Source: Mycolicibacterium holsaticum DSM 44478 = JCM 12374 (GTDB lineage Bacteria > Actinomycetota > Actinomycetes > Mycobacteriales > Mycobacteriaceae). Taken from it: a stretch of 64,000 nucleotides of DNA. Below the pieces are notes generated by a model. The model was not told the DNA's origin. It saw nothing but the letters and a program-made list of their open reading frames with translations, and did not search any database. The stretch spans positions 5,146,001 through 5,210,000 of the forward strand of contig NZ_CP080998.1 of the NCBI RefSeq assembly GCF_019645835.1. The letters run 5' to 3'. Every line of letters starts with the position of its first letter. Position 1 is the stretch's first letter. Below are positions 1,199-57,658 of this stretch, in pieces. The translations under genes were made by a program, and so were the position numbers.

Positions 1199-1213
1199 GT
1201 AAACGGCATTATC
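1199..1213. promoter_or_regulatory. Putative operator, family GAGAAY-N4-RTTMTC (3-base spacer variant)
   Basis: GTAAAC-GGC-ATTATC, an imperfect inverted repeat between the divergent aldolase and thiolase genes. It is one of about 15 related sites in this window, and one of the weaker matches. Confidence 0.4.
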
Positions 1214-1232
1214 GGTGTGGTACCCATTAGAT

Positions 1233-2378
1233 ATGTCCCAGAACCGGGTCGCGATCGTCGGCGCCGCGCTGTCGGATTGCGGACGGGTGCCCGACAAGAC
1301 GGCGACGGCGCTGATGGCTCAGGCCGCGCGGCGCGCGGTCGACGATGCCGGGCTGACCAAAGATGACATCGAAGGCTTCGGCGGCCACGGGACGTTGTTG
1401 CCGCCCGTCGAGGTGAGCGAGTACCTGGGCCTGCGGCCGGTGTGGGTCGACGCCACCAACGTCGGCGGCTCGTCGTGGGAGGTGATGGCGGGCCACGCCG
1501 CATCGGCGATCGCGGCAGGCGAGGTCGACGTGGTTCTGCTGACCTACGGTTCGACCGCACGCTCGGACGTCAAGCGCCGCGTGCGGGCCTCGGCAGCGGC
1601 GCTGAGCACCGGTGGTGCCATGCAGTTCGAAGCGCCCTACGGGGCAACGCTGATCGCCAAGTACGCCATGGCTGCGCGGCGTCACATGATCGAGTACGGG
1701 ACCACCGTAGCGCAGCTGGCCGAGGTCGCTGTCGCTGCGCACGAGTGGGCCGCCATGAACGAGAACGCCTTTGAGCGCGACCGCATCACCGCCGCGGACG
1801 TGGCTTCGGCGCCGATGCTCGCCGACCCGTTCACGGCCAAGCACGTGTGCCTGCGCACCGACGGCGGTGGGGCGGTCGTGCTCGCCAGCGAGCGGGTGGC
1901 GAAGAACTGCGCCAAAGAACCGGTCTGGATCCTCGGCGCCGCCGACGCGGCATCGCACGTGAGCATGAGCGAATGGGCAGACTTCACGACATCAGCAGCA
2001 GCACAGTCGGGTTCGCGCGCGTTCGCCCAGGCAGGCGTCGCCCCCGCCGACATCGACGTGTGCCAGCTCTACGACTCGTTCACCTCGACGGTGCTGCTGT
2101 CGGTGGAGGACCTCGGGTTCTGCGCCAAGGGCGAGGGCGGCCCGTTCATCGGTTCGGGAGCGCTGCGTCCCGGCGGTGCACTGCCCACCAACACCGACGG
2201 CGGCGGGCTGGCCTCGTGTCACCCGGGGATGCGCGGCATGTTCCTGATGGTCGAGGCGGTTCGGCAACTGCGGGGTGAATGCGGCGAGCGTCAAGTCGAC
2301 GGCGCCCGCCTGGCGTGTGTGCACGCGATGGGCGGCTTCTTCACCCACAGCGCGACGATGATCCTGGGGCGGCAATGA
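1233..2378 (+). CDS. Thiolase-fold protein (SCP-x/lipid-transfer type)
   Basis: A 381-residue thiolase-superfamily protein of the nonspecific lipid-transfer/SCP-x group. The usual nucleophilic Cys position lies in NVGGSSWEV and appears to be Ser, so classical thiolysis is doubtful. A C-terminal CHPGMRGM loop replaces the usual GHP motif. The QLYDSF segment carries a Tyr in a region implicated in catalysis in Ltp2-type aldolases. The stop overlaps the start of a DUF35 protein (ATGA), the same partner arrangement as Ltp2 with ChsH2, so a retro-aldol or thiolase complex of the two is likely. The ATG at 1233 (MSQNRVAIVG) fits the family; an in-frame GTG at 1215 is an alternative. Confidence 0.8.
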   Translation: MSQNRVAIVGAALSDCGRVPDKTATALMAQAARRAVDDAGLTKDDIEGFGGHGTLLPPVEVSEYLGLRPVWVDATNVGGSSWEVMAGHAASAIAAGEVDVVLLTYGSTARSDVKRRVRASAAALSTGGAMQFEAPYGATLIAKYAMAARRHMIEYGTTVAQLAEVAVAAHEWAAMNENAFERDRITAADVASAPMLADPFTAKHVCLRTDGGGAVVLASERVAKNCAKEPVWILGAADAASHVSMSEWADFTTSAAAQSGSRAFAQAGVAPADIDVCQLYDSFTSTVLLSVEDLGFCAKGEGGPFIGSGALRPGGALPTNTDGGGLASCHPGMRGMFLMVEAVRQLRGECGERQVDGARLACVHAMGGFFTHSATMILGRQ

Positions 2379-2815
2379 CGGCCTCGCCGAGCGGCCCGGA
2401 CCGGCCGACCATCGACACCGACAGCGAGACCTGGTGGGCCGCGGTTCAGGATCGCCGAATCCTGATCAACGCGTGCGGCTCGTGTGGCCGAAATTCGCTG
2501 TACGTCCGGCCTTTCTGTCCGCACTGTTGGAGCGAGGACGTGTCGCTGGTGCCCGCCAGCGGACGGGCGCGCCTCTACACGTGGAGCGTCATCCACCAGA
2601 ACGGCGCGCCCTTCGACGCATGGCTGCCCTACGTCGTCGCCATGGTGGACCTCGACGAGGGCCCCCGGCTGATGACGGTGCTCACTGACTCTCCGGCCGA
2701 AGAGCTCTGCGCCGGAATGACACTCACCATCGACTTTCGCGAAGGCGACGACGGATTCGTGGTGCCGGTCTTTCGGCCGGACCGTAACGCACCTGAAGGG
2801 AACGGGCATGCATAA
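2375..2815 (+). CDS. DUF35 OB-fold protein, partner of the preceding thiolase
   Basis: A 146-residue protein with an N-terminal zinc-ribbon (CGSCG ... CPHC, about residues 32-50) followed by an OB-fold. This is the standard DUF35 (ChsH2 C-terminal/acyl-CoA-associated) architecture. DUF35 proteins bind thiolase-like aldolases and are thought to help bind the CoA moiety. The ATG lies inside the thiolase stop (ATGA), indicating translational coupling and probably fixed stoichiometry. It overlaps the next gene by 8 bases. The frame is open upstream from 2279, but that segment is a shadow of the thiolase. Confidence 0.85.
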   Translation: MTASPSGPDRPTIDTDSETWWAAVQDRRILINACGSCGRNSLYVRPFCPHCWSEDVSLVPASGRARLYTWSVIHQNGAPFDAWLPYVVAMVDLDEGPRLMTVLTDSPAEELCAGMTLTIDFREGDDGFVVPVFRPDRNAPEGNGHA

Positions 2816-5680: not shown

Positions 5681-5694
5681 GGTGTCCTTTCGAT

Positions 5695-5710
5695 GCAAAT
5701 GCGGATTCTC
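5695..5710. promoter_or_regulatory. Putative operator, GAGAAY-N4-RTTMTC family
   Basis: GCAAAT-GCGG-ATTCTC, with one good half-site and one weaker half-site. It sits between the divergent ligase and SDR genes. Confidence 0.4.
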
Positions 5711-5723
5711 TTCAGCGTAAATG

Positions 5724-5736
5724 TAACCTCTCACGT
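5724..5736 (+). promoter_or_regulatory. Putative -10 box of a leaderless promoter
   Basis: TAACCT at 5724-5729 is followed by 7 bases and then ATG. This spacing would place the transcript start on the A of the start codon, a common actinobacterial leaderless arrangement. No ribosome site precedes this ATG. Confidence 0.45.
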
Positions 5737-6636: not shown

Positions 6637-6639
6637 TCG

Positions 6640-7458: not shown

Positions 7459-7464
7459 CCCTGC

Positions 7465-7479
7465 GTTAACGACGTTTCC
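7465..7479. promoter_or_regulatory. Putative operator (3-base spacer variant)
   Basis: GTTAAC-GAC-GTTTCC, an imperfect inverted repeat in the divergent crotonase/MaoC region. TATCTT at 7490-7495 could be the -10 box of the rightward operon. This is one of the weaker matches to the family. Confidence 0.35.
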
Positions 7480-7548
7480 GTTTTTCGGGTATCTTAATTT
7501 CCGCCGACGTCCCCACCGATGTAATGGGCCGAACTGAGGAGGCGATGC

Positions 7549-15253: not shown

Positions 15254-15269
15254 GAGAATCATTATTCTC
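15254..15269. promoter_or_regulatory. Operator-like perfect inverted repeat, GAGAAT-N4-ATTCTC
   Basis: GAGAATCATTATTCTC. The arms extend to 7 bases with the flanking T and A (15253-15270). TATTCT inside the right half could be the -10 box for the amidohydrolase at 15289. It is one of the best members of the site family. Confidence 0.65.
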
Positions 15270-21480: not shown

Positions 21481-21496
21481 GAGAATGCTTATTCTC
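21481..21496. promoter_or_regulatory. Operator-like perfect inverted repeat, GAGAAT-N4-ATTCTC
   Basis: GAGAATGCTTATTCTC, located between the divergent amidohydrolase operon and the acyl-CoA dehydrogenase at 21665. A palindromic site could regulate both directions. Confidence 0.65.
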
Positions 21497-24159: not shown

Positions 24160-24175
24160 GATAACGTCTGTTCTC
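24160..24175. promoter_or_regulatory. Putative operator overlapping a leaderless promoter
   Basis: GATAAC-GTCT-GTTCTC ends directly at the ATG of the gene at 24176. TAACGT (24162-24167) inside the repeat is 8 bases from the ATG and could be the -10 box, so a bound repressor would cover both -10 and transcript start. Confidence 0.55.
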
Positions 24176-24811
24176 ATGCCGCAACCACGCCTGCTCGATC
24201 TTCTCAACCCCGCCACCACCGCGCTCGTCACCCAGGAGTGTCAGGGCGGGGTCATCGGCCCGCAAGCGGGGCTGCCGATGCTCGCAGAAGAAGCGCGCCG
24301 CGAGGCGATTCCGAATATCGCCACCCTGCTCGACGCCGCCCGGGCAGCCGGGGTCACGGTGGTGCACTGCCTGATCCAGAAGCGCCAGGACCAACGGGGC
24401 TCCAACACCAACGCCCGGCTGTTCATGGCCGGTAAGTCCTTCGCCGCCGACTTGACGCCCGGCAGTCCGGGCGCCTCCGTGCTGCCCGAACTCGGCCAGG
24501 CGCCCAGTGACATCGTTCTGACCCGTCTACACGGCGTCGGCCCCATGACCGGCACCGACCTCGACTCGGTGCTGCGCAACCTGAATGTCAGAACCATTGT
24601 GGGCGTGGGTGTTTCGGTCAACATCGCGATCACGAACTTCGTGATGGACGCCGTCAACCGCAGCTACCAGTTCGTGCTGCCCCGCGACGCGGTGAGTGGC
24701 TATCCACGCGAATACGCCGAGTCGGTCATCGACAACACGTTGGCCCTGCTCGCGACGGTGACCACCACCGAAGCCGTTGTCCAAGCGTGGCGTGAGCTCG
24801 CAGCCGACTAA
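24176..24811 (+). CDS. Isochorismatase-fold protein, catalytic residues replaced
   Basis: A 211-residue cysteine-hydrolase (isochorismatase) fold protein. In active members the triad is Asp, Lys and Cys. Here the Asp position appears as Gln20 (LVTQECQ), the Lys position as Arg117 (VLTRLHG), and the Cys position as Ala151 (VGVSVNIAITNFVMDA). It may be a non-catalytic binder or use a different mechanism, for example through Cys22. The ATG at 24176 is directly preceded by a putative operator and has no ribosome site, consistent with leaderless expression. Confidence 0.75.
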   Translation: MPQPRLLDLLNPATTALVTQECQGGVIGPQAGLPMLAEEARREAIPNIATLLDAARAAGVTVVHCLIQKRQDQRGSNTNARLFMAGKSFAADLTPGSPGASVLPELGQAPSDIVLTRLHGVGPMTGTDLDSVLRNLNVRTIVGVGVSVNIAITNFVMDAVNRSYQFVLPRDAVSGYPREYAESVIDNTLALLATVTTTEAVVQAWRELAAD

Positions 24812-24837
24812 CCCGTTATGGATGTCGCCCACCCTTG

Positions 24838-24856
24838 GTGATAACGTCATTCTCAC
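24838..24856. promoter_or_regulatory. Putative operator (3-base spacer variant)
   Basis: GTGATAAC-GTC-ATTCTCAC, with 8-base arms that match except at two positions. It lies about 45 bases upstream of the amidohydrolase start at 24901. Confidence 0.55.
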
Positions 24857-30686: not shown

Positions 30687-30711
30687 CGGACAATGCGATG
30701 CTATTTGTCCG
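30687..30711. promoter_or_regulatory. Inverted repeat CGGACAA-N11-TTGTCCG
   Basis: Two 7-base arms with an 11-base spacer, immediately upstream of the P450 start region. They use the same TGTCCG half-site as the repeat at 30525-30537. Confidence 0.4.
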
Positions 30712-30738: not shown

Positions 30739-31953
30739 GTGCCGATTGAATCCACGTCCCGAGCCACGTCCGCACACCCACTGCACTCCCCGGACTTCTA
30801 CGCAGGCGATCCGTATCCGGCATACCGGGAACTGCGCAACACGACGCCGGTGGTGTGGAACGACGTCACGAATTTCTGGGCGCTGACCAAATACGAGGAC
30901 GTGCGCTTCGTTTCGGGTCACCCGTTGTTGTTCTCGTCGCAGTACGGCATCACGATTCCGGATCCCAGCCAGCCTGAGCCCGTCCAGGAAGGCAATCTGA
31001 TCTTCACGGATCCGCCGCGACACCGGCAGCTGCGCAAGCTCATCAACGCCGGGTTCAGCCGCCGCCAGGTGGCGTTGCTGGAGCCCACGATCCGCAAGAT
31101 CGTCGCGGGCATCGTCGACGGCATCGATCCGGCCCGGGAGTACGAGTTCGCCGAAGAGATCGCGGCGCCCCTGCCCACCCGGATGATCGCCGAGATGCTC
31201 GGCGCCGCCCCCGAGGACTGGGAGAAGTTCCGGGCTTGGTCGGATGCGGCCGTCGGAACGGCAGACCCCGACATCGAGTTGGATCACCTGGTGGCGCTCG
31301 GCGAGCTTTACGAGTACTTCACCGCGCTGATCGAAGCCCGGCGCTCAGGCAAGGTCACCGGACAAGACGATCTGTTGAGCATCCTGGCGGCCGCAGAGGT
31401 CGACGGCGAACGCCTCACCGACGCCGATCTACTCAACTTCTCGTTCCTGCTTCTGGTGGCCGGTAACGAGACCACACGCAACCTCATTGCGCTCGGCACC
31501 GTCGCGCTGCTGGAACATCCGGACCAGTTCGCGTTGCTTCGTTCGGATCCTTCTCTGCTGACGTGCGCCGTCGAGGAGATGCTGCGCTTCACCAGCCCGG
31601 TGACACACATGGCGCGACGAGCCACCGCCGACGTCGACATCCGCGGGCAGAAGATCAAGGCCGGCGACACCGTGGTGATGCTGTACGGCTCGGCCAACCG
31701 GGATGAGGACGTCTTCGGCACCAGCGGTGAAGAGTTCGACATCACCCGAAACCCCAACCCACACATTGCTTTCGGCGCAGGTGAACATGCCTGCCTCGGC
31801 GCCCAACTGGCACGTCTGGAGGCCAGGGTGATGTTCGAGGTGCTGCTGGGGGCCTATCCGAGCATCGAACTGACCGGTGACGTGACCCGGCTGCGCGCCA
31901 CGATGGTGCCCGGCGTCAAACGGATGCCGGTGCGCCTGGGGGCAAGCGTCTGA
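30739..31953 (+). CDS. Cytochrome P450, first gene of an igr-like operon
   Basis: A 404-residue soluble P450. The I-helix oxygen motif AGNETT is at about residues 241-246, ExxR is in EEML, and the heme loop FGAGEHACLG puts the ligand at Cys352. It hydroxylates or further oxidises a catabolic substrate, with electrons from ferredoxins encoded elsewhere. The GTG at 30739 is chosen because GAGGAG lies 7 bases upstream; the in-frame ATG at 30712 lies on an inverted repeat. Its position ahead of ACAD, MaoC, DUF35 and Ltp2-like genes parallels cyp125 in the cholesterol igr operon, but orthology to CYP125 is not shown. Confidence 0.88.
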   Translation: MPIESTSRATSAHPLHSPDFYAGDPYPAYRELRNTTPVVWNDVTNFWALTKYEDVRFVSGHPLLFSSQYGITIPDPSQPEPVQEGNLIFTDPPRHRQLRKLINAGFSRRQVALLEPTIRKIVAGIVDGIDPAREYEFAEEIAAPLPTRMIAEMLGAAPEDWEKFRAWSDAAVGTADPDIELDHLVALGELYEYFTALIEARRSGKVTGQDDLLSILAAAEVDGERLTDADLLNFSFLLLVAGNETTRNLIALGTVALLEHPDQFALLRSDPSLLTCAVEEMLRFTSPVTHMARRATADVDIRGQKIKAGDTVVMLYGSANRDEDVFGTSGEEFDITRNPNPHIAFGAGEHACLGAQLARLEARVMFEVLLGAYPSIELTGDVTRLRATMVPGVKRMPVRLGASV

Positions 31954-33152
31954 TGGACTTCGACTTCACCTCCGAACAGGAACAACTTCGCAACGAGTTC
32001 CGGGCGCGCCTGGAGGCCGTGATGACTCTCGAGCGGCGCGCGGCCGTCGCGGATCTGATGGAGGGCGGCGCCGCGGTCGGCGAGTGCAGGCGGGCGCTCG
32101 GTGAAGCGGGTCTGCTCGGCGTCGCTTGGCCGGTCGAATACGGCGGACGGGGTCTGACCGCGCTGGAACAGTACATCTTCAGCGAGGAGGCGCGCCGCGT
32201 GCACGCGCCGTTGCCGATGATCACGCTCAACACCGTCGGCCCCACCCTCATCCAGTACGGCACCGAGGAACAGAAGCAAAAGTTCCTTCCCGCGATACTC
32301 AAGGGCACCGTCGACTTCGCGATCGGCTACTCCGAACCCGGCGCCGGCAGCGACCTGGCATCGCTGCGCACCACTGCCGTCCGCGACGGCACCGACTACG
32401 TCATCAACGGTTCCAAGATGTTCACCAGCGGCGCCGAGTTCGCCGACTATATCTGGTTGGCAGCGCGAACCGATCCAGAAGCCAAGAAGCACAAGGGCAT
32501 CACCGTGTTCATCGTGCCCACCGATTCGCCGGGCTTCTCGTGGAAACCCCTGCACACCATGCCGGGTGTGTCGACGTACTACACGTTCTACGACGACGTG
32601 CGCGTCCCCGAGAGCGCGATCGTGCTCGGCGAGAACCAGGGCTGGACGTTGGTGACCAACCAGCTGAACCTGGAGCGCGCCGCGTTGGGCAATCTCGGTG
32701 CGCTGGAACCACTGTTCGCCAAGACCCTGGATTGGGCCAGAACCACGCCGCTGGACGACGGGTACGTGATCGACCAGCCATGGGTCCAGCAGGCGCTGGC
32801 GCGCGTCGAAGCTCAGGTCGCCGCCTACCGACTGCTCAACCTGCGGGTCAACAGCACCATGAGCTCCGGGGCACTCGGGATGGGGGAGGCTTCGGCGGCG
32901 AAGGTTTTCGGCACCGAACTCACCCAGCAGGTGGCCCGTGAACTGCTCGACGTCGTCGGGCAGGCCGGCACCCGAAAAGGCGCCACCGCGCCCCTGAAAG
33001 GTGAACTCGAGAGCGCCTACCGGCTGGCTGTCATCAACACTTTCGGTGGCGGTGCGAACGAGCTGCAACGCGACATCATCGCCATGGCCGGGCTCGGGAT
33101 GCCGCGGGCACCCCGCGACATGCGGGTGTCGGAGAAAGGAAGACAGCAGTGA
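31953..33152 (+). CDS. Acyl-CoA dehydrogenase, ChsE2-like
   Basis: A 399-residue dehydrogenase with VAWPVEYGGRG, GYSEPGAGSDLASL, NGSKMFTSGAEFADYIW and the C-terminal GGGANELQRDIIAMAGLGMPR. That last segment is characteristic of the FadE26/FadE29 (ChsE2/ChsE4-like) group of steroid side-chain dehydrogenases. The usual Glu base is Gly here (NTFGGG), as expected for a subunit of a heteromeric enzyme. The partner is probably the protein at 34134-35243. The start overlaps the P450 stop (TGATG) and the end overlaps the MaoC gene (GTGA). Confidence 0.85.
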   Translation: MDFDFTSEQEQLRNEFRARLEAVMTLERRAAVADLMEGGAAVGECRRALGEAGLLGVAWPVEYGGRGLTALEQYIFSEEARRVHAPLPMITLNTVGPTLIQYGTEEQKQKFLPAILKGTVDFAIGYSEPGAGSDLASLRTTAVRDGTDYVINGSKMFTSGAEFADYIWLAARTDPEAKKHKGITVFIVPTDSPGFSWKPLHTMPGVSTYYTFYDDVRVPESAIVLGENQGWTLVTNQLNLERAALGNLGALEPLFAKTLDWARTTPLDDGYVIDQPWVQQALARVEAQVAAYRLLNLRVNSTMSSGALGMGEASAAKVFGTELTQQVARELLDVVGQAGTRKGATAPLKGELESAYRLAVINTFGGGANELQRDIIAMAGLGMPRAPRDMRVSEKGRQQ

Positions 33153-33703
33153 CCGACACAGCCAAAGACGAGCTGCGTGAGCGTCTTGACGCGCTCATCG
33201 GCAAGCCTACCGACGGCGTCGGCAAGCCGGTACGCGCACCGGATCCGGTGAACGCCGCGATGATCCGCCACTGGGCGTACGCCCTGGGTGACATGAGCCC
33301 GGCCTACCTCGACCCCGAATTCGCGAAGAACTCGCGCTATGGCGACATCGTGTCACCGCCGGTGATGCTGCAGACCTGGACGATGCCGCCGCCGAAGCTG
33401 GAGGGCATCCACGAGCGCGGTGGTGTGCCGATCGAGATGAAAGGTGAGAACCCTCTGCAATTTCTCGCCGACGCCGGTTACACCGGCATCATCGCGACAA
33501 ACTCCGAGTTCGAGATCGAGCGCTATCCGCGGGTCGGCGACGAGATCACCTCGGAGACTGTCTTCGACTCGATCTCCGACGAGAAGAAGACAGCCATGGG
33601 CGACGGCTACTTCGTCACCTGGGTGACCACCTACCGCGACCAGAACGGCGAGGTCGTCGGACGCCAGTGGTTCCGCACCCTGCGATTCAAGACGGGAAAC
33701 TGA
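33149..33703 (+). CDS. MaoC/FAS1-type dehydratase-like subunit (ChsH2 N-domain-like)
   Basis: A 184-residue hotdog protein with the N-terminal FAS1-like pattern MIRHWAYALGDMSPAYLDPEFA and a GDIVSPPVMLQTW segment. In the cholesterol pathway ChsH2 carries such a domain fused to a DUF35 domain. Here the DUF35 is the next, separate gene. It is expected to pair with the MaoC protein at 35240-35689 to form a ChsH1-ChsH2-like enoyl-CoA hydratase for a bulky side chain. The GTG start overlaps the dehydrogenase stop, and the stop overlaps the DUF35 start (TGATG). Confidence 0.83.
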   Translation: MTDTAKDELRERLDALIGKPTDGVGKPVRAPDPVNAAMIRHWAYALGDMSPAYLDPEFAKNSRYGDIVSPPVMLQTWTMPPPKLEGIHERGGVPIEMKGENPLQFLADAGYTGIIATNSEFEIERYPRVGDEITSETVFDSISDEKKTAMGDGYFVTWVTTYRDQNGEVVGRQWFRTLRFKTGN

Positions 33704-34116
33704 TGGCCAGCCGACTCGCACCCTCCATCAGCCCCGACACCGAGTTCTTCTGGTCGGGTCTCAACGAGCACGAGCTTCGTATCCAGCGGTGTACCGACTG
33801 CAAAACCTTGCGGGTCCCGCCGAGACCCATGTGCGGTAACTGCCAATCCTTGAACTGGGACCATGTCGTTTCCACCGGGCGGGGCACCGTCTACAGCTTC
33901 GTGATGCCGCAATACCCGCCGCTGCCCTTCCTGCAATACCCCTATGTCGTTGCGCTGATCGAGCTCGACGAGGGTGTGCGCATCGTGTCGAACCTGTGCG
34001 ATATCGAGCCTGAGGCGATAACGAACGGGATGCAGGTCGAGGTCTTCTACGAGACCTTCGAGGCTCTCCCCAGCGGGGAAGAACTGGTGCTCCACCAGTT
34101 TCGGCCGGCGCGCTGA
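33703..34116 (+). CDS. DUF35 OB-fold protein (ChsH2 C-domain-like)
   Basis: A 137-residue stand-alone DUF35 protein. The zinc ribbon CTDCKTL ... CGNCQSL is at about residues 29-47 and is followed by an OB-fold. In Ltp2 systems this domain is needed for aldolase activity and is fused to the hydratase subunit. Here it is free, 1.6 kb upstream of the Ltp2-like gene. It may therefore bridge the hydratase and the aldolase non-covalently. The start overlaps the preceding gene, and it is separated by 17 bases from the next. Confidence 0.87.
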   Translation: MASRLAPSISPDTEFFWSGLNEHELRIQRCTDCKTLRVPPRPMCGNCQSLNWDHVVSTGRGTVYSFVMPQYPPLPFLQYPYVVALIELDEGVRIVSNLCDIEPEAITNGMQVEVFYETFEALPSGEELVLHQFRPAR

Positions 34117-34133
34117 ATTAGAGGAAGCGACAC

Positions 34134-35243
34134 ATGGATTTCACTTTCACCGAGGAGCAGGAGACCGTCGCCAAGGTCGCCCGACAGCTCTTCGAGCACC
34201 GCGCCACACCAGAGCATCTGACCGAGCTCGAAGCGGGTGAAGTACGGTACGACGCCGGGCTGTGGGCCGAGTTGGCGTCGGCGGATCTGCTAGGAATCGC
34301 GCTGCCCGAAGCCGTCGGGGGCACCGGCGGGGGTTTCCTGGAGCTGGGCGTGCTGCTCAGCGAGGTCGGGTACAGCGTCGCGCCGGTCCCGGTGTACGCG
34401 ACGCTCGCCCTTGGCGCCGATACTATTGCCCGGCACGGTGATTCCGACCTGCAGCAACGCTTCTTGCCCGGAGTGGTCGACGGCAGCACCCTGTTGACCG
34501 CGGCGCTGACCGAACCGGGAAGCTCCGATCCGACCGCGCCCCGGACCAGCGCGCGTCCCGACGGCGATGTCTGGCGGCTCACCGGAACCAAAGAACTGGT
34601 ACCCGCCGGACAACTCACCACGGCCATCGTCGTATCGGCCACGGCGGACGACGGACCCGGCCTGTTTGTCGTCGAAACCGGCGGCGGCGTAAACGTGACG
34701 CCGGCGACCACGACCAACGGCGAGCCTTTCGCCGATATCGAATTGACGGATGCCATCGGGTCGCGGCTCACCGAGCATGCCGACGCCGACGTGGTCCGCA
34801 CGCTGTACACCAGGGCATTGGTCGGCCTGTGCGCGATGCAGATCGGCGTCGCCGAGCGGGCGCTGAAACTGGCCGCTGCCTACACCGGCGAGCGTGAGCA
34901 GTTCGGGCGTCCTATCGGGTCTTTTCAGGCTGTGCAGCAGCGCCTGGCCGACGCCTTCATCGACACCGAAGCGATCCGCTGGACCACCTGGCATGCGGCC
35001 TGGCTGATCGCCGAGGGTCGACCGGCCGAGCGGGAAGCCGCGATCGCGAAGTTCTGGGCCGCCGAGGCCGGTGCGCGGGTCGCCGCGTCCGCTCAGCAGG
35101 TACACGGCGGCATGGGCATCGACGTGACCTACCCACTGTCCCGGTATTTCCTGTGGGCCAAGCAGATTGAACTGGCATTGGGGTCGGCGTCACAGCAGCT
35201 GGCCCGCCTCGGCAACGCGTATGCGGAAGGACTGACCACATGA
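34134..35243 (+). CDS. Acyl-CoA dehydrogenase, ChsE1-like
   Basis: A 369-residue dehydrogenase with FGRPIGSFQAVQQRLADA and a C-terminus reading VHGGMGIDVTYPLSRYF, like FadE28/ChsE1-type subunits, and lacking the canonical Glu base there. It probably forms an alpha2beta2 heterotetramer with 31953-33152 that desaturates a three-carbon side-chain thioester. An AGAGGAAG-like ribosome site precedes the ATG. The stop overlaps the MaoC start (ATGA). Confidence 0.85.
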   Translation: MDFTFTEEQETVAKVARQLFEHRATPEHLTELEAGEVRYDAGLWAELASADLLGIALPEAVGGTGGGFLELGVLLSEVGYSVAPVPVYATLALGADTIARHGDSDLQQRFLPGVVDGSTLLTAALTEPGSSDPTAPRTSARPDGDVWRLTGTKELVPAGQLTTAIVVSATADDGPGLFVVETGGGVNVTPATTTNGEPFADIELTDAIGSRLTEHADADVVRTLYTRALVGLCAMQIGVAERALKLAAAYTGEREQFGRPIGSFQAVQQRLADAFIDTEAIRWTTWHAAWLIAEGRPAEREAAIAKFWAAEAGARVAASAQQVHGGMGIDVTYPLSRYFLWAKQIELALGSASQQLARLGNAYAEGLTT

Positions 35244-35689
35244 CCTCGACCCTGAACCGCACCACCACGCTCAAGTGGAACGACATCAACGTGGGCGACA
35301 CGGTGACACCGATGAACGTCCCGGTCACCACCACGCTGATCGTCGCGGGCGCCATCGCGTCCCGCGACTACATGCCGGTGCACCACGACCGCGACTTCGC
35401 CAATTCCCAAGGCTCCAAGGACATCTTCCTCAACATCCTGACGACCAACGGGCTGTGCGTGAAGTTTCTGCACGACTGGGCAGGGCCCGAGGCGATGGTC
35501 AAGAAGCTGTCCATCCGGCTCGGGGTGCCCGCCTATCCGAACGACCCGCTGCGGTTCGAGGGCAGCGTGACCGACAAGTCCTCGGCGGACGGCGAGGGGC
35601 TCATCGAGGTCACCTTCAAAGGCACCAACAGCCTCGGCGATCACGTCAAGGGCACGGCTGTGCTGAGCCTGCTCGAGGGTGTCTCGTGA
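35240..35689 (+). CDS. MaoC-like hydratase subunit, ChsH1-like
   Basis: A 149-residue hotdog protein with VAGAIASRDYMPVHHDRDFAN, the Asp/His-containing hydratase segment, and LRFEGSVTDK later. Its size and position match ChsH1 (Rv3541c-like), which pairs with the MaoC domain of ChsH2. The start overlaps the dehydrogenase stop (ATGA) and the end overlaps the thiolase-like start (GTGA), so the whole operon is translationally coupled. Confidence 0.85.
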   Translation: MTSTLNRTTTLKWNDINVGDTVTPMNVPVTTTLIVAGAIASRDYMPVHHDRDFANSQGSKDIFLNILTTNGLCVKFLHDWAGPEAMVKKLSIRLGVPAYPNDPLRFEGSVTDKSSADGEGLIEVTFKGTNSLGDHVKGTAVLSLLEGVS

Positions 35690-36855
35690 CAGACGGCATC
35701 GGCGGCAAGGCCGCGCTCGTCGGCATCGGACAGACCGAGTTCTCGAAAGAGTCGGGCCGCACCGAGATGCAACTGGCTTGCGAGGCGGTCAAAGCCGCGA
35801 TCGACGATGCCGGGTTGCGCCCCAAGGACATCGACGGCATGGTGACCTTCACCGTCGACGAGAACGAGGAGATCGAGGTCGCCCGCAACGTCGGCATCGA
35901 GAACCTGACGTTCTTCACCCGCGTGCCGCACGGGGGCGGCGCCGCTGCGGGCACCGTGATGCAGGCCGCCATGGCGGTCGCGACGGGCGCCGCCGAGGCG
36001 GTGGTCTGCTACCGGGCATTCAACGAGCGCTCTGGGTTCCGGTTCGGCGGCGCCGGACGCCAACCCGGTGTCACCCCGCTGTGGATGGCGCCCTATGCGC
36101 CGTTCGGCTTCATGACACCAGCGGCTTGGGTGGCCCTGCACGCCCAGCGCTACATGACCACCTACGGGGTCACCAACGCCGACTTCGGCAAGATCTCTGT
36201 CATCGATCGCAAGCACGCGGCCAACAACCCCGATGCCTGGTTCTACGAGAAGCCGATCACCATCGAAGACCACCAGCAGTCGCGCTGGATCATCGAGCCG
36301 GTGCTGCGCCTGCTCGACTGCTGCCAGGAGAGTGACGGCGGCGTGGCCATGGTCGTGACCAGCGTCGAGCGGGCCCGCGACCTGGCGAAGCCGCCGGCGG
36401 TGATCACCGCGGCGGCCCAGGGCGCTGCCCACGACGGCGAGGTGATGACCAGCTATTACCGGGACGACATCACCGGGCTGCCCGAGATGGGTGTGGTCGG
36501 CAACAAACTGTGGCGCGACTCCGGGCTGGCACCCGAAGATATCTCGACCGCGTTCCTCTACGACCATTTCACCCCGTTCGTGTTCAGCCAACTCGAGGAG
36601 CTCGGGTTCTGCGGGCGGGGCGAGGCCAAGGATTTCGTGTCGGTCGACGAACTCTCGCTGGGCGGCCGAATGCCGATCAACACCAACGGTGGACTGCTGG
36701 GCGAGGCCTACATCCACGGGATGAACGGCATCACCGAGGGCGTGCGCCAGGTCCGCGGAACGTCGTACAACCAGGTCGACGACGTCGAACACGTGCTCGT
36801 CACATCGGGCACCGGCGTTCCGACCAGCGGCCTGATCCTGGCGCCCGACCACTGA
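35686..36855 (+). CDS. Ltp2-like thiolase-fold aldolase
   Basis: A 389-residue thiolase-superfamily protein of the Ltp2 type. The usual Cys nucleophile site is in a Gly/Ala-rich segment (PHGGGAAAGTVMQ), and the C-terminal loop reads INTNGGLLGEAYIHGMNG in place of a GHP motif. Tyr residues in LYDHFT and AYIHG are candidate catalytic residues. In the igr pathway Ltp2 cleaves a 17-hydroxy-steroid-CoA to release propionyl-CoA. A similar retro-aldol step on an unknown ring system is expected here. It is the last catabolic gene before the TetR gene. Confidence 0.85.
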   Translation: MTDGIGGKAALVGIGQTEFSKESGRTEMQLACEAVKAAIDDAGLRPKDIDGMVTFTVDENEEIEVARNVGIENLTFFTRVPHGGGAAAGTVMQAAMAVATGAAEAVVCYRAFNERSGFRFGGAGRQPGVTPLWMAPYAPFGFMTPAAWVALHAQRYMTTYGVTNADFGKISVIDRKHAANNPDAWFYEKPITIEDHQQSRWIIEPVLRLLDCCQESDGGVAMVVTSVERARDLAKPPAVITAAAQGAAHDGEVMTSYYRDDITGLPEMGVVGNKLWRDSGLAPEDISTAFLYDHFTPFVFSQLEELGFCGRGEAKDFVSVDELSLGGRMPINTNGGLLGEAYIHGMNGITEGVRQVRGTSYNQVDDVEHVLVTSGTGVPTSGLILAPDH

Positions 36856-36867
36856 GAAGTTAGTGTC

Positions 36868-37488
36868 GTGCGGGTGGCATCTGACGTGACGCAACCGGTG
36901 GTGGTCGACACCCGGGATGTCATCATCTCGGCGGCGTTCGCCTGTTTCCGGACCCGCGGGTTGGCCAAGACGACCATCGTCGACATCGCCAGGGCGGCCG
37001 AGGTGTCGCGCAGCACGTTCTACGAGTACTTCCGGGATAAGGAGACGATCGTCGAGGCCTGCGCGGAGGCCGCGTCGCAGCGGTTCTACCGCAACATGGC
37101 CAAGGCCATCGATCGGCACGGAGGCAGCACGCTGGAAGGCCGGCTGGTGCGCGCCGCCGTCTTCGTCACCCAGGCGCGTCAGGTCATCGAGCCCGAGGTG
37201 TACTTCGACCCCGAGGAAGTCAACCTCATGATGACCAAGAACGCCGCCACGCTGCTCAAGGAGTGCGCGGACTTCCTGGCGCCCTACGTCATGGCGGCCA
37301 GGCTGACCGGAGAGGTCCGCGCCAACCTGGATGTACCGTCGGCCACCGAATGGTTCGCACGAATGCTGTTCTCGCTGTTCACGACTCCGTCGCCGACCAT
37401 CGACATGCGCGACGACGACGCGGTCGCCGACTTCGTCCGGGCATACGCGGTGAACGGATTCGTCGACGGGAACTCCCGCCGGCGGTAG
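36868..37488 (+). CDS. TetR-family transcriptional regulator
   Basis: A 206-residue regulator with an N-terminal helix-turn-helix (about residues 15-62: VIISAAFACFRTRGLAKTT, IVDIARAAEVSRSTFYEYF) and a ligand-binding C-domain. The GTG start lies 13 bases after the Ltp2-like stop with GAGAAG upstream, so it is likely co-transcribed with the igr-like operon. It may control that operon through the TGTCCG or TGACAGGCCTGTCA repeats at 30.5-30.7 kb. The ligand would plausibly be a CoA thioester. It is convergent with the P450 gene. Confidence 0.88.
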   Translation: MRVASDVTQPVVVDTRDVIISAAFACFRTRGLAKTTIVDIARAAEVSRSTFYEYFRDKETIVEACAEAASQRFYRNMAKAIDRHGGSTLEGRLVRAAVFVTQARQVIEPEVYFDPEEVNLMMTKNAATLLKECADFLAPYVMAARLTGEVRANLDVPSATEWFARMLFSLFTTPSPTIDMRDDDAVADFVRAYAVNGFVDGNSRRR

Positions 37489-39981: not shown

Positions 39982-39997
39982 GAGAATCGCACTATCC
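39982..39997. promoter_or_regulatory. Putative operator (weak half-site)
   Basis: GAGAAT-CGCA-CTATCC, with one perfect half-site and one poor half-site, 41 bases upstream of the possible ATT start of the CaiB-like gene. Confidence 0.35.
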
Positions 39998-40586: not shown

Positions 40587-40602
40587 GAGAACGCCTATTC
40601 TC
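40587..40602. promoter_or_regulatory. Operator-like inverted repeat GAGAAC-N4-ATTCTC
   Basis: GAGAACGCCTATTCTC, with one mismatch between arms, in the SnoaL/ligase divergent region. TATCCT at 40619-40624 may be the -10 box of the ligase gene. Confidence 0.6.
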
Positions 40603-42359: not shown

Positions 42360-42375
42360 GGAAACTTGCATTCTC
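42360..42375. promoter_or_regulatory. Putative operator (one weak half-site)
   Basis: GGAAAC-TTGC-ATTCTC in the 286-base region upstream of the dehydrogenase at 42570. TACATT at 42383-42388 follows as a possible -10 box. Confidence 0.45.
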
Positions 42376-44472: not shown

Positions 44473-44488
44473 GGTAATCTGGATTCTC
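44473..44488. promoter_or_regulatory. Putative operator, GRKAAY-N4-ATTCTC
   Basis: GGTAAT-CTGG-ATTCTC in the divergent promoter of two SDR genes. TAGCGT at 44497-44502 is 6 bases from the GTG at 44509, suggesting a leaderless rightward promoter right next to the operator. Confidence 0.5.
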
Positions 44489-48754: not shown

Positions 48755-48770
48755 GAGAATAGGCGTTATC
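48755..48770. promoter_or_regulatory. Operator-like repeat over a leaderless -10 box
   Basis: GAGAAT-AGGC-GTTATC. On the minus strand the repeat contains TATTCT, 6 bases from the P450 start. Repressor binding would directly block the promoter. Confidence 0.6.
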
Positions 48771-48866: not shown

Positions 48867-48882
48867 GAGAATATGAATTCTC
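48867..48882. promoter_or_regulatory. Operator-like perfect inverted repeat GAGAAT-N4-ATTCTC
   Basis: GAGAATATGAATTCTC, a second site in the P450/SDR divergent region. It lies 55 bases upstream of the small BFD-like gene, the first rightward gene of the pair. Confidence 0.6.
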
Positions 48883-51039: not shown

Positions 51040-51059
51040 GTGAGAACATACGTTATCAC
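51040..51059. promoter_or_regulatory. Operator-like repeat GTGAGAAC-N4-GTTATCAC
   Basis: GTGAGAAC-ATAC-GTTATCAC has 8-base arms with one mismatched pair. This is the longest dyad of the family, between the divergent SDR and DapB-like genes. Confidence 0.65.
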
Positions 51060-51076: not shown

Positions 51077-51106
51077 GTGACGGTTTCGACGGGGGCCGCC
51101 GGATGA
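51077..51106 (+). other. Nine-codon leaderless upstream frame
   Basis: TACTGT at 51065-51070 is 6 bases from a GTG at 51077. That frame encodes nine residues (MTVSTGAAG with GTG read as Met) and stops with a TGA overlapping the ATG of the DapB-like gene (ATGA at 51103-51106). It could provide translational coupling to a gene that lacks its own good ribosome site. Confidence 0.35.
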
Positions 51107-52188: not shown

Positions 52189-52197
52189 CACGCGCGT

Positions 52198-53250: not shown

Positions 53251-53262
53251 GGCAACACTTCC

Positions 53263-54501
53263 TCAGTCCCACACCACGTCTAGACGTGGCGGTGATCGGA
53301 ACATCGTTCCGGTGATGTAGGGCGCCGGCGCATCGGGGTCGAGCCGGAGTCCGGGCAACTCGTCGAACAGCGCGTTGAAGATTTTGGTGGTCTCGAGCCG
53401 AGCCAGATGCATGCCCAGGCAGACATGGGCCCCGTGCGCGAACCCGATGTGCGGCTTACGTTCCCGGAAAATGTCGAACTTCTCCGGTTCATTCCACCGC
53501 GTTTCGTCGTGGTTCGCGCTGCCGAGACTGAGCATCATCGTCGCACCCTCGGGTACGTGAACCCCGCCGATCTCGGTGTCGCGGGTGACCTCGCGCATGA
53601 AATTGAGCAGCGGGGTTTCCCAGCGAATGCCTTCCTCGATCGCCTGCGGCAGCAGGTTGCGGTCGGCGCGCACCGCGTCGAGCTGATCACGATGGGTGAG
53701 CAATGCGTAGGCCAGGCTGGCAGTCGAGCGGGACGTGGTCTCGGCGCCCGCGGGCAGTAGGTTGCGCATGAAACCGTAAATCTGCTCGTCGGACATTTTC
53801 ACGCCGTTGACCTCTGCGGCCGCAAGGATGGAGACCATGTCGTCCTTGGGCTCCCGGCGCCGGTCGGCAAGGATCCCGACGAAATACTCCTTCATCTTCG
53901 CCGATGCCCGCATCGCGCAGTCCATGTCGCCGCGGAAGCCCAGCAGATCGATCGCCAGTCGGTGAAAGTGCAAGACATCGGAATCGGGAAGTCCCAGTAG
54001 CGCTGCGATCACCCGCACCGGAATCGGCATGAACACCGCGTCGACGAGATCGGCACGCTTGGCGTCCTTGATCTTCGCAATGGTTCGGTCCACCAGCGGG
54101 CCGACGAGTTCGGTATCCCAACGCTTCATCGATGAGCGAGCGAAGGCGAACTCGTGCAGCTTGCGGTAAATCGCGTGTTCGGGGTCCTGCATCTCGAGGA
54201 TGGTGGGGCCCTGCAGTGGCCGTACCACGTCCTCGTAACACCGGGTGCTGAAGGTGATGTTGTCGGTGAAGATCGCCTTGACGGTGTCGAACGTGTACGC
54301 CGTGAAGGTCGGCGGGCCGTCTTCCGAATTGCCGATCATGCCCATCTCAGGCCACCCGGCATGCACCGGCGCCTGTGCCCGCAGCTCCTTGAGGAAGGGG
54401 TACGGGGTGGCGTCACCGTCGGCGCCCATGCCTGCGTTGAATTTGTCTTGAGCGTCTCGAATGCTCTGCTCGAGATCTTCGACGCTCGCCGGCTCGAACA
54501 T
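53263..54501 (-). CDS. Cytochrome P450
   Basis: A 412-residue P450 with AGAETT in the I-helix (about residues 251-256), ExxR within EEGIR and the heme loop FAHGAHVCLG with Cys361 as ligand. The ATG at 54499-54501 has GAGGAG seven bases upstream; an ATG at 54543 without a ribosome site is rejected. The N-terminus is extended compared with the other P450s here. A motif shared with the TetR promoter (54529-54544) lies upstream. It is co-transcribed with DapB-like paralogue 4. Confidence 0.87.
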   Translation of the reverse strand: MFEPASVEDLEQSIRDAQDKFNAGMGADGDATPYPFLKELRAQAPVHAGWPEMGMIGNSEDGPPTFTAYTFDTVKAIFTDNITFSTRCYEDVVRPLQGPTILEMQDPEHAIYRKLHEFAFARSSMKRWDTELVGPLVDRTIAKIKDAKRADLVDAVFMPIPVRVIAALLGLPDSDVLHFHRLAIDLLGFRGDMDCAMRASAKMKEYFVGILADRRREPKDDMVSILAAAEVNGVKMSDEQIYGFMRNLLPAGAETTSRSTASLAYALLTHRDQLDAVRADRNLLPQAIEEGIRWETPLLNFMREVTRDTEIGGVHVPEGATMMLSLGSANHDETRWNEPEKFDIFRERKPHIGFAHGAHVCLGMHLARLETTKIFNALFDELPGLRLDPDAPAPYITGTMFRSPPRLDVVWD

Positions 54502-54528
54502 GCGACGACTCCTCACTGCGGATCGGCC

Positions 54529-54544
54529 GATATCAACATACACC
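54529..54544 (-). promoter_or_regulatory. Motif shared with the TetR promoter: GGTGTATGTTGATATC
   Basis: On the minus strand this reads GGTGTATGTTGATATC, identical at 14 of 16 positions to the plus-strand sequence at 56949-56964 in front of the TetR gene. It is a possible common operator. Confidence 0.4.
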
Positions 54545-54626
54545 CTGGTGGTTGCCGACCTCCATCATGTACGTTTGGCCGGAGTCAAGCCGTAGCCTCA
54601 GCGAAAAGCACACCAGGAGCGATCGA

Positions 54627-55715
54627 TTGGTAACTCGAGTCGTCCAATGGGCCACGGGCGCCGTCGGTCGCGCTGCGCTCGCCGAGCTCATTGAGAACCC
54701 TGATTTTCAATTGGCCGGCGTGCTGGTGTACGACCCGGCGAAGGCTGGACAGGACGCCGGGTCGCTGTGCGGCCTTCCGGCGACCACCGGCGTCCTCGCT
54801 ACCACGGACAAGGACGAGATCTTCGGACTCGGCGCCGACGTCGTCATACATGCCGCCAGCAAGGCCCATGCCGTTGACACCAACGCCGACGACATCTGCC
54901 GACTGCTTGCGGCGGGCACCGACGTCATCACGACGACGTCCTACAACCACCTGCCGACCTACGGCGCCGAGACCGCGACGGCTTTCGTCGAAGCATCCCG
55001 GACGGGACAGTCCCGCTTCCATGCCGCGGGAGAGAACCCGGGATTCATGTTCGAACGCCTGGTGGCGACCGTGACGGGACTGAGCAAGTCAATCGATCGA
55101 ATCGACCTCTACGAAGCGACCGATGTCTCGGCGGTCGACAGCCGACCCATGCTCGTCGACCTGATGGGTATGGGCCGAGCGCCCGAGGACGTCACGGTCG
55201 ACTCGCTGATCATCAAGAAGCTCGACATGGCGTACCGTCAGGCGCTCAACGCCACCGCCGACGTTCTCGGCGTCACGCTGTCGCACGTCGAGGTCTCCGT
55301 TGATGCCACCACGCTTCAGCACGACCTCGAGGTGACGGCTGGCACTATCGAGGCGGGAACGGTCGTCGGCCAACGGTTCTCATGGGTCGGACACTGGTCA
55401 GGCCGCCCGCTGCTGGCCATCCACGAGGAATGGGTTCTTACGCGGGATCTGCCCCAGTGGGGGCTCACGCCGCTTGCCCCGGGGGAGAAGGCGCCGCTGA
55501 TCCGCGCCGTCATCAAGGGCGAACCGAGTTTCGAGCTCGCGCTCGACGTCGGCTGGGACGGCAAGGTGCCCAACGGGCAGCACGCGCAACCGGGGCATCT
55601 GATGATCGCGATGGGCGCAGTCCGGGCGATCCCTTACGTGAGGGCCCAGCCGCCAGGGATCGTCACGGCGCCGGTGTTCGGTGCGATCCAGCTGGGCGGC
55701 CAGCGCCGAAACTGA
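54627..55715 (+). CDS. DapB-N-like NAD(P)-binding dehydrogenase (paralogue 5)
   Basis: A 362-residue family member with VVQWATGAVGRAAL, AGENPGFMFERL and VRAIPYVRAQPPG, so the hallmark Asn is Arg here. The TTG at 54627 is taken as start because AGGAG lies 7 bases upstream and the next residues align with paralogues; no ATG is suitably placed. It is divergent from the P450 of paralogue 4. A 9-base inverted repeat spans its stop and that of the convergent gene. Confidence 0.82.
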   Translation: MVTRVVQWATGAVGRAALAELIENPDFQLAGVLVYDPAKAGQDAGSLCGLPATTGVLATTDKDEIFGLGADVVIHAASKAHAVDTNADDICRLLAAGTDVITTTSYNHLPTYGAETATAFVEASRTGQSRFHAAGENPGFMFERLVATVTGLSKSIDRIDLYEATDVSAVDSRPMLVDLMGMGRAPEDVTVDSLIIKKLDMAYRQALNATADVLGVTLSHVEVSVDATTLQHDLEVTAGTIEAGTVVGQRFSWVGHWSGRPLLAIHEEWVLTRDLPQWGLTPLAPGEKAPLIRAVIKGEPSFELALDVGWDGKVPNGQHAQPGHLMIAMGAVRAIPYVRAQPPGIVTAPVFGAIQLGGQRRN

Positions 55716-55759
55716 GCTTCTGCAGACACATTCGCGCCATCGTCGCGCACAAGCTCAGT
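55711..55759. terminator. Stem-loop spanning two convergent stops
   Basis: ACTGAGCTT (55711-55719) and AAGCTCAGT (55751-55759) form a perfect 9-base stem with a 31-base loop across the ends of the convergent DapB-like and binding-protein genes. There is no T-tract; a bidirectional terminator is possible. Confidence 0.35.
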
Positions 55760-56900: not shown

Positions 56901-56910
56901 ATTCAGCAAC

Positions 56911-56930
56911 ATACAACATGCAGGTTGTCT
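56911..56930. promoter_or_regulatory. Inverted repeat ATACAAC-N6-GTTGTCT
   Basis: Seven-base arms with one mismatched pair, between the divergent binding-protein and TetR genes and overlapping the -10 region of the former. It is a candidate TetR autoregulatory site. Confidence 0.4.
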
Positions 56931-56948
56931 GCCACCGCTAACCTACAC

Positions 56949-56964
56949 GGTGAATGTTGATAGC
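56949..56964 (+). promoter_or_regulatory. Motif shared with the P450 promoter: GGTGAATGTTGATAGC
   Basis: The counterpart of 54529-54544. TAGCAT (56961-56966) at its end is 7 bases from the TetR ATG, a leaderless -10 candidate. Confidence 0.4.
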
Positions 56965-56973
56965 ATGCTCGGC

Positions 56974-57606
56974 ATGGCCAAGCGTGGTGGCACAGACTCC
57001 GAACGACGCGCTCGCGGAGATCAAACCCGCCGTCATCTCATCGATGCGGGGCGCATCTTGTTCGTGGAGAAGGGCTACTTCAACACCAGCATCGGCGACT
57101 TGGTCACCACCTCGGGCGTCGGCACCCGCGGCGCCTTCTATCACCACTTCAAGGACAAGGCCGAACTCTTCCGCGCGGTGTTCGAGGAGGTCGAGCGGGA
57201 CCTCACACTGCGTTCGCTGTCCTCCCCGCCGCGCGGCGCGGACTCATGGGAGCGACTCTGCGCAGGTCTTCACGGCTTCCTCGAGTCGGCACTCGAACCC
57301 GAGGTGCAGCGCATCATGTTGGTCGACGGACCTGTCGTCTTGGGCTGGCGGACGCTGCGCGCGATCCAGGAAGACAACAGTATCGCGTTGATCGACGAGA
57401 TGGTGCGCAATGCCATCGCCGAAGGCAGCATCGACGATCTACCCGTTGCCGAGCTGACTCACATGCTCGTCGCATCGCTCGAGGAGGGTGCTCTTCTGGT
57501 GGCACACGCCAAAAGCCCCGGCCGAGCACGCGGTCGTGCGGCACGGATTCTCGACCGGCTTCTGCTCAGCTTCGCGACGGAGCCGCGCAAGGTCATCAGG
57601 CGGTAG
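56974..57606 (+). CDS. TetR-family transcriptional regulator
   Basis: A 210-residue regulator. The N-terminal HTH reads LIDAGRILFVEKGYFNTSIG, DLVTTSGVGTRGAFYHHFKD (about residues 22-62). The C-domain VQRIMLVDGPVVLGWRTLR is typical of one large actinobacterial TetR group. The ATG at 56974 fits a leaderless promoter (TAGCAT, 7-base gap); an ATG at 56965 is possible. It is divergent from the binding-fold protein, and likely regulates that gene and possibly the P450 at 53263-54501, which carries a similar upstream motif. Confidence 0.88.
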   Translation: MAKRGGTDSERRARGDQTRRHLIDAGRILFVEKGYFNTSIGDLVTTSGVGTRGAFYHHFKDKAELFRAVFEEVERDLTLRSLSSPPRGADSWERLCAGLHGFLESALEPEVQRIMLVDGPVVLGWRTLRAIQEDNSIALIDEMVRNAIAEGSIDDLPVAELTHMLVASLEEGALLVAHAKSPGRARGRAARILDRLLLSFATEPRKVIRR

Positions 57607-57642
57607 CGGTTGACTCGCGACTCAGGATGGTGACCTCCGTAT

Positions 57643-57658
57643 GAAAATGAGCATTTCC
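57643..57658. promoter_or_regulatory. Putative operator GAAAAT-N4-ATTTCC
   Basis: GAAAAT-GAGC-ATTTCC with flanking AT on both sides gives 8-base arms with one mismatch. It is a variant of the GAGAAY family upstream of the SDR-ALDH-alcohol dehydrogenase operon. Confidence 0.45.

Follow-up and report, generated by a model that had tools for sequence, protein, structure and literature searches.

The 64,000-nucleotide stretch of Mycolicibacterium holsaticum DNA analysed here (hereafter the window; G000:C1:5146001–5210000, G numbers denoting genomes and L numbers loci) forms a catabolic island which encodes acyl-CoA ligases, acyl-CoA dehydrogenases, enoyl-CoA hydratases, thiolases, Amidohydro_2 proteins, four P450s, short-chain dehydrogenases/reductases (SDRs; one of the mycofactocin type), DAP_DH_C proteins and an igr-like operon (30739–37488). 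The island is regarded as one of lipid- or steroid-like degradation. As read from translations, the window is flanked by PE/PPE- and ESX-like genes on the left and by an mce-like operon on the right. The promoters of the island contain a family of inverted repeats built from the half-site GAKAAY, separated mainly by four (N4) and at some promoters by three (N3) bases. We conclude with high confidence that these sites form a genuine regulon and consider it probable that they are the operators of one TetR-type regulator, termed TetR_A (264 residues), the gene of which lies 4.1 kb to the left of the window (G000:C1:5141102–5141896, minus strand), divergent from an amidohydrolase gene. Gene coordinates and starts, cited below by window position and strand, were obtained with a simple gene caller, and start codons are uncertain.

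The strict form of the N4 palindrome (GAGAAYNNNNRTTMTC) occurs in the 5.62-Mb genome, a single contig, at seven distinct places, all of which are located inside the window (15254, 21481, 24160, 40587, 48755, 48867 and 51042); the reversed pattern, used as control, was found at no place genome-wide. Matches with one mismatch and weaker matches were excluded from the strict counts. When up to two mismatches are permitted, the window holds 33 matches against 12.7 expected, a number attained in none of 100 shuffles.

The individual sites were followed across nine islands from nine genomes including that of the window, which comprise 815 kb with 10.4% intergenic DNA by our own gene calls. Island fractions given in the following refer to the best matrix match within ca. 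440 bp upstream of orthologous genes, include the window's own genome and do not imply the same position. The strict N4 sites are positioned upstream of the amidohydrolase gene 15289+ (15254–15269; 8/8 islands with an orthologue, the best match in G197 and G394 being another sequence), between the 20268− operon and 21647+ (21481–21496; 9/9 islands), directly abutting the ATG of 24176+, a member of the isochorismatase family, and upstream of the SnoaL gene 23687− (GATAAC-GTCT-GTTCTC, 24160–24175; 9/9), between the SnoaL gene 40016− and the acyl-CoA ligase gene 40661+ (40587–40602; 9/9), at the start of the P450 operon 47553− (48755–48770; also present in G197, G167, G311 and G432), between this P450 gene and the SDR gene 49113+ (48867–48882), and between the SDR gene 50163− and 51103+ (51042–51057; 7/8). 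Four further sites possess a three-base spacer. GTAAAC-GGC-ATTATC (1199–1213) is situated between the HpcH aldolase gene 347− and the thiolase gene 1233+, with a score of at least 9 in 9/9 islands, and is accompanied 23 bp to its left by a weak N4 partner (GAGAACGAGGATTCCA, 1176–1191; matrix score 7.9), which scores at least 6 in six islands. GTTAAC-GAC-GTTTCC (7465–7479) lies in a conserved alignment block between the enoyl-CoA hydratase gene 6640− and the 7549+ operon (at least 9 in 9/9), GATAAC-GTC-ATTCTC (24840–24854) upstream of the amidohydrolase gene 24901+ (9/9), and GAGAAT-CGC-ACTATC (39982–39996) upstream of the CoA-transferase/P450 operon 38721− (9/9). The list is completed by a weak N4 site between the acyl-CoA ligase gene 4115− and the SDR gene 5779+ (GCAAAT-GCGG-ATTCTC, 5695–5710; at least 9 in 7/9 islands), an N4 site between the SDR gene 43646− and the mycofactocin-type SDR gene 44518+ (GGTAAT-CTGG-ATTCTC, 44473–44488; at least 9 in 4/6), whose right arm is conserved while the left one drifts, and an uncertain, divergent palindrome upstream of the SDR gene 57724+ (GAAAAT-GAGC-ATTTCC, 57643–57658; matrix score 6.0), which is palindromic in 5/5 aligned genomes.

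An earlier note, made from the window's sequence alone, had described about 15 such repeats, all with a four-base spacer. Its four near-perfect ones (15254, 21481, 40587 and 48867) read exactly as claimed, and the strict sites as a class proved real and conserved; the uniform spacer did not stand, as the sites at 1199, 7465, 24840 and 39982 have three bases, 42360 was dropped and 57643 is uncertain. In agreement with the note, none of the named sites lies in the middle of a gene, the 48755 site overlapping the predicted start of the P450 gene 47553–48776, and most of them (10/15 by our gene calls, 48755 counted) are found between divergent genes. The match at 42360 is confined to the window's genome, with 0/5 in the other islands carrying an orthologue. 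A one-mismatch match at 54693 was rejected as it lies inside coding sequence (frame ...AELIENPDFQLAG...), and a two-mismatch match at 577 is likewise within a gene. On the left side, additional sites at the relative positions −8224, −8201, −6108, −4095 and −4031 extend the family by ca. 8 kb beyond the window.

The spacer preference is evident from the exact matches to GAKAAY-Nn-RTTMTC in the nine islands. With n = 4, 56 matches are intergenic and four coding, the latter located 14–73 bases from predicted gene starts; with n = 3 the counts are eight and zero, and every other n between 0 and 10 gives at most one of each kind. The motif is thus not equally frequent in intergenic and coding DNA, a comparison which the earlier note had asked for, and the distribution persists after removal of the window's own genome (N4 50/3, N3 7/0). 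Allowing one mismatch, the intergenic/coding counts rise to 84/13 for N4 and 32/7 for N3, compared to 0–7 intergenic and 1–15 coding matches for the remaining spacers. With one mismatch allowed at most, 60 named TetR_A loci (1.19 Mb) contain GAGAAY-Nn-RTTCTC 111 times for n = 4 and one to nine times for each other n from 0 to 10. The eight exact N3 matches represent a single promoter (24901) in 8/9 genomes. Between orthologous promoters the arms are retained while the spacer letters drift, in a comparison which set aside matches well inside genes, and the spacer class is mostly promoter-specific. A matrix match of at least 9 was detected in 215/249 upstream windows of genes with a candidate site (42360 and 54693 included) versus 42/465 of other genes, a comparison to be read as a description rather than an independent test because the same sites had served to train the matrix. 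A further 34 windows in the vicinity of listed promoters were kept separate from it; a matrix match was seen in 19 of these.

A further property of the sites is their pairing. Of the neighbouring intergenic matrix matches not more than 80 bp apart, 33/36 pairs start 21–24 bp from each other, where matches within 8 bp had been merged, such that closer pairs cannot appear. Among 118 strong sites, the offsets of +22.5 bp (10.2%) and −22.5 bp (7.6%) are the only ones at which a second site (score at least 8) occurs in more than 5%; with shuffled flanks the overall rate is ca. 0.01%, and no single offset exceeds 0.85%. Both sets of numbers include orthologous promoters more than once. At a weaker threshold of 6, the pairs fall under 16 promoter labels. 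Many pairs combine N4 with N3, and N3+N3 and N4+N4 pairs are also present. The second site at a distance of 21–24 bp at many promoters suggests that a pair of dimers may occupy neighbouring positions.

The distinct TetR-type regulator postulated in the earlier note is likely to be TetR_A, whose gene is placed just outside the window. Its TetR_N domain (PF00440) was recognized with 33.1 bits against a cut-off of 24, and its own promoter contains the sites at −4095, just upstream of the start codon, and −4031. In a survey of 297 genomes of the genus, 22 of which are outside the set of 275 with at least 90% completeness and at most 5% contamination, TetR_A orthologues (at least 72% identity) are found in 58. 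At least three forward strict sites are present in 54/58 carriers versus 4/239 other genomes, uncorrected for kinship among the genomes, and in 55/58 versus 8/239 if the count of either strand is accepted. The four non-carriers with at least three forward sites have them at scattered places or as a different, 31–33-bp doublet; G408, G409, G424 and G482, which have no TetR_A, reach three or more strict sites solely when the reverse strand is counted. At the TetR_A start, a stretch of 246 bp was compared in 61 named loci; it contains a site in 37 cases with up to one and in 53 with up to two mismatches, compared to 0.7% and 8.9% in shuffles, while the same arms at spacers of 0–1, 6–7 and 8–9 bases yield 0 and 7–16 cases, respectively. 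The DNA-reading helix of TetR_A (LSLRAFYQHF) is invariant in 44 aligned sequences and 60 loci. One contig, G262:C2, carries two TetR_A copies (L088 and L117; 87% and 82% identity) 34 kb apart.

On the basis of linkage and own-promoter sites we assign the N4 sites to TetR_A with good confidence; that TetR_A also reads the N3 sites is proposed with moderate confidence. The best evidence for one protein accepting both classes comes from the 24901 promoter, which has an N3 site in 8/9 islands and an N4 site with the same arms in G311; also in G332, a genome of the genus survey, two N4 sites are 680 bp apart, corresponding to the distance from 24160 to 24840. We propose the following scenario: A TetR_A dimer would recognize the inverted half-site GAKAAY, chiefly with a four-base spacer (GAGAAY-R-NN-Y-RTTCTC), and at some promoters or partner positions a three-base spacer combined with T-containing arms (GAKAAC-G-N-C-RTTMTC). 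Where a second site is 21–24 bp away, there might be room for two adjacent TetR_A dimers. On the DNA, TetR_A would keep both the catabolic operons and its own gene from being transcribed, until an early metabolite of the pathway, probably an acyl-CoA by analogy with KstR, frees it.

The same half-site is associated with relatives of TetR_A. Proteins of 54–65% identity, termed TetR_A2, were inspected in 12 loci, 11 of which have an exact intergenic GAGAAY-N3-RTTCTC palindrome nearby; the twelfth, L136, has none. Judged by its surroundings, it represents one orthologous promoter, the spacer letters of which drift at a fixed length of three. Outside Mycobacterium, an uncultured Williamsia (L133) encodes a TetR_A relative of 64% identity with the same DNA-reading helix and has N4 (one mismatch) and T-arm N3 sites nearby. 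The nearest listed TetR_A paralogue in the window's genome, TetR_A3 (G000:C1:1709334–1709996), shares 33% identity. The strict N3 pattern GAGAAYNNNRTTCTC (GAGAAY-N3-RTTCTC) is widespread in the genus (263/297 genomes, mostly 6–13 times each, in some 1–3 times) and occurs in the window's genome nine times, always within ca. 180 kb around TetR_A3 (G000:C1:1632397–1809709; L160–L168). These nine places are all intergenic, none coding, and one of them, at 1710128, is positioned between TetR_A3 and its divergent neighbour; no strict N4 site was found in 400 kb around TetR_A3. Ten genes scanned near these sites largely belong to the enzyme classes of the island, supplemented by a thioesterase and a Rieske-type oxygenase. 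The regulon around TetR_A3 thus resembles that of TetR_A in its half-site GAGAAY, in its enzyme classes and in a related regulator, and differs from it by the three-base spacer, by G in both arms and by its distribution (N3 pattern in 263/297 genomes versus TetR_A in 58). As the strict N4 (7/7) and strict N3 (9/9) sites of this genome each keep to their own region, the same half-site is used with four bases in one territory and with three in the other.

Several observations weigh against the assignment of all island sites to TetR_A. In many distant carriers (within L103–L132) the site at the TetR_A start is degenerate, a GTATTCT-like part remaining, and 12 kb around the TetR_A relative of G210 (L136) are free of N3 and N4 sites when one mismatch is allowed. 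The scoring matrix was trained on the same sites it scores, and neither orthologous promoters nor related genomes count as independent observations. Places with exactly one mismatch are more frequent outside the island than inside (26 versus 4, one of the four coding), so that weak single sites out there mean little. In addition, the strict pattern is present in other genera of the family too, with 120/201 genomes of a draw, the own genus included, when counted irrespective of TetR_A. TetR_A co-occurs in all 58 carriers with TetR_57, a TetR-type protein encoded inside the window, and co-occurrence alone hardly chooses between the two. Finally, AmtR of Corynebacterium glutamicum, a TetR-type regulator of nitrogen control, fails to bind the site upstream of its own gene, which has three rather than four spacer bases, until one base is added, according to the part of PMC2723105 considered; binding is there decided by a single spacer base, an argument against the use of both N3 and N4 by one protein. 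AmtR is comparable as a TetR-type regulator for which three versus four bases decide on binding, and differs in half-site, in the nitrogen role and in being one regulator rather than a set of paralogues.

The behaviour of AmtR likewise favours the alternative which survives best, namely that TetR_A binds N4 while TetR_A3 binds the N3 sites of the island, the N4/N3 pairs 22.5 bp apart being composite operators of both repressors. It would account for the many close pairs joining N4 with N3 and for the location of all nine strict N3 sites near TetR_A3, one of them at its own divergent promoter. However, the arms differ: G is present in both arms in 9/10 exact N3 sites of the TetR_A3 region but in 0/8 of the nine islands, which stem from one promoter, and in 60 TetR_A loci no exact G-arm N3 site was found. 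Moreover, in G311 the 24901 promoter retains its arms but has N4 in place of N3, and N3+N3 and N4+N4 pairs occur as well. We regard this division of labour as rather unlikely.

A regulator encoded elsewhere, with TetR_A as a mere passenger of the island, or an activating rather than repressing TetR_A, appears improbable. The genome offers 138 TetR-type matches, and the genome-wide regulator scan covered this type; against it, the half-site recurs elsewhere beside TetR_A relatives (54–65% and 33% identity), including the 64% relative in Williamsia, and hence follows this protein family.

It is very unlikely that the GAGAAY sites are bound by TetR_57 or TetR_37, the TetR proteins encoded inside the window, despite their local position and the presence of TetR_57 orthologues (at least 60% identity) in all 58 TetR_A carriers plus two more genomes. 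The latter two, G241 and G470, possess TetR_57 without TetR_A, and in 20 kb around TetR_57 they have no GAGAAY site with up to one mismatch; genome-wide, G241 has no strict site and G470 two, on contigs other than that of TetR_57. TetR_A is preferred because of this finding and because the own-promoter motifs differ, that of TetR_57 being a distinct palindrome, conserved in 9/9 islands and repeated at 54534. The motif neither requires TetR_37 nor follows from its presence: TetR_37 orthologues are encoded in G346 and G279, genomes with no TetR_A and no strict site, and G206, G374, G397 and G421 combine TetR_A and three to four forward strict sites with a best TetR_37 match of 61–63%, the level of a widespread paralogue. 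Least of all, and so improbable that we take it as already refuted for the strict sites by the shuffle, genome-wide and spacer counts, the sites might arise as a side effect of AT-rich promoters or of −10 boxes (TATTCT inside ATTCTC): a TANNNT hexamer is often contained in the site, on 54% of strands for N4 and 50% for N3, yet the columns of the site by themselves predict 43% and 41%, so that the excess is modest; window shuffles never attain the observed count, other spacers are not enriched, and a −10 box requires no second arm. An apparently strong −10 overlap (116/194 site–gene pairs, matches well inside genes being left out, versus 8.3% of random intergenic windows) shrank under a column-wise control and is given here in passing.

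TetR_57 (56965–57606, plus strand; TetR_N and TetR_C_41 domains) has a candidate operator of its own. Its promoter palindrome, GCAACATACA...ATGTTGC, belongs to a second, CAAC-type operator-like family (CAACMTACANNNTGNNKGTTG) unrelated to the GAGAAY sites. One copy (CAACATACAACATGCAGGTTG, 56907–56927) is aligned in 9/9 islands, with one base of the right arm changed in G197, and is followed by an imperfect second copy at 56939–56959; another (CAACATACACCCTGGTGGTTG, 54534–54554), aligned in 9/9 genomes with small changes, is placed between the P450 gene 53263− and the DAP_DH-like gene 54720+. These are candidate operators by which TetR_57 might control itself and the divergent P450/DAP_DH promoter. 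The exact CAAC-type pattern occurs genome-wide only at 54534 and 56907; with up to two mismatches there are four forward and five reverse matches, little above the three and two of the reversed control.

TetR_37 (36898–37488, plus strand) is the last gene of the igr-like operon and, by present evidence, not the regulator of the GAGAAY sites. By Pfam, this operon displays the gene order of igr, a feature of steroid side-chain catabolic islands, with a P450, two acyl-CoA dehydrogenases, MaoC/OB-fold hydratase parts and an Ltp2-like thiolase; the best PDB matches are 4x28 and Tcur3483 for FadE 31953 and CYP125MRCA for P450 30739. As stated in the earlier note, it is devoid of the GAGAAY site, with no match at up to one mismatch in 8/9 islands and one one-mismatch site in the promoter of G432. 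An inverted repeat CGGACA-N13-TGTCCG in its promoter (30687–30711) might be the operator of TetR_37; the strict form is present in 8/9 islands but only in 2/6 stretches with TetR_37 and no TetR_A, and the assignment is therefore given as a mere suggestion. This promoter contains other conserved blocks as well (TGTGTACAC-like in relatives). For the igr-like operon, the promoter at 53263/54720 and TetR_57, a different control seems to apply, and the island would accordingly have at least two, perhaps three, local TetR switches.

The proposed TetR_A regulon can be compared with the regulators of cholesterol catabolism. KstR is an autoregulated TetR-type repressor with palindromic operators, several of which are located between divergent genes; its operator is TAGAAC-N2-GTTCTA (TnnAACnnGTTnnA) and partly overlaps the −10 region in its own promoter, as described in the considered part of PMC1995591. 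TetR type, own-promoter operator and palindromes between divergent genes are shared, and the KstR half-site AGAAC is very close to GAGAAC, whereas the sites reported here have spacers of four or three bases instead of two, GAKAAY arms and often a partner 22.5 bp apart. The earlier note had already argued that the centre spacing is not the two bases of KstR; correspondingly, the arms are not enriched at N2 in the nine islands or the 60 TetR_A loci, and the actual spacers are mainly N4, besides N3. KstR2 is a local TetR repressor with few operators around its own gene in the cholesterol cluster and the motif AnCAAGnnCTTGnT (PMC3068626, in the part considered); it resembles TetR_A as a local repressor beside its own operators and differs from it in the motif. 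The window contains one two-mismatch match to the KstR-type pattern TAGAACNNGTTCTA (0.32 expected) and no exact KstR2 core CAAGNNCTTG (CAAG-N2-CTTG; 0.30 expected). As neither motif is above chance, the island appears to be neither a KstR nor a KstR2 regulon. KstR structures are present in the PDB; among 56 PDB sequence matches to TetR_A no chain is named KstR, as judged by chain name. By analogy, the regulon might be described as a TetR-type repressor system of a catabolic island operating in a KstR-like mode, with promoter operators, autoregulation and release by an acyl-CoA.

Beyond the earlier note, the analysis adds the N3 class, the pairing at 22.5 bp, TetR_A itself and the separate candidate operator of TetR_57. 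In the considered portions of the open-access literature matched by motif letters, related regulons or clusters, none names this regulon or deals with that of TetR_A3, and a description elsewhere is possible. One apparent motif match, PMC8228715, was discarded, GAGAAT being part of primer tails in 8/8 places shown in the portion considered.

The comparison of TetR_A (N4), TetR_A2 (N3) and TetR_A3 (N3), all with GAGAAY arms, suggests a role of spacer length in separating paralogous regulons. In a broader sense, spacer length might act as a specificity code among the paralogous TetR repressors of mycobacterial catabolic mega-clusters. The T arms of the N3 sites inside the TetR_A island may then keep TetR_A3 off, and operators would often come in twos, spaced by 22.5 bp or roughly two turns of the helix, to be occupied by adjacent or mixed dimers; to this generalization we assign an even chance. 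Doublets of GAGAAC-N4-GTTCTC 31–36 bp apart were observed in genomes of this genus without TetR_A (G268:C1:6450986/6451017, G431:C6:162679/162712 and G437:C1:2878795/2878827) and also in other genera; they probably belong to another regulator with a related half-site.

By these findings, ca. 70 kb of degradation genes are grouped into one regulon, for which a candidate switch can be named and which is present in 58/297 surveyed genomes of the genus. TetR_A offers a direct starting point for seeking the substrate of the island, namely via whatever compound releases it. The use of the same half-site with a spacing that differs by one base pair constitutes a natural experiment on the insulation of duplicated repressors.

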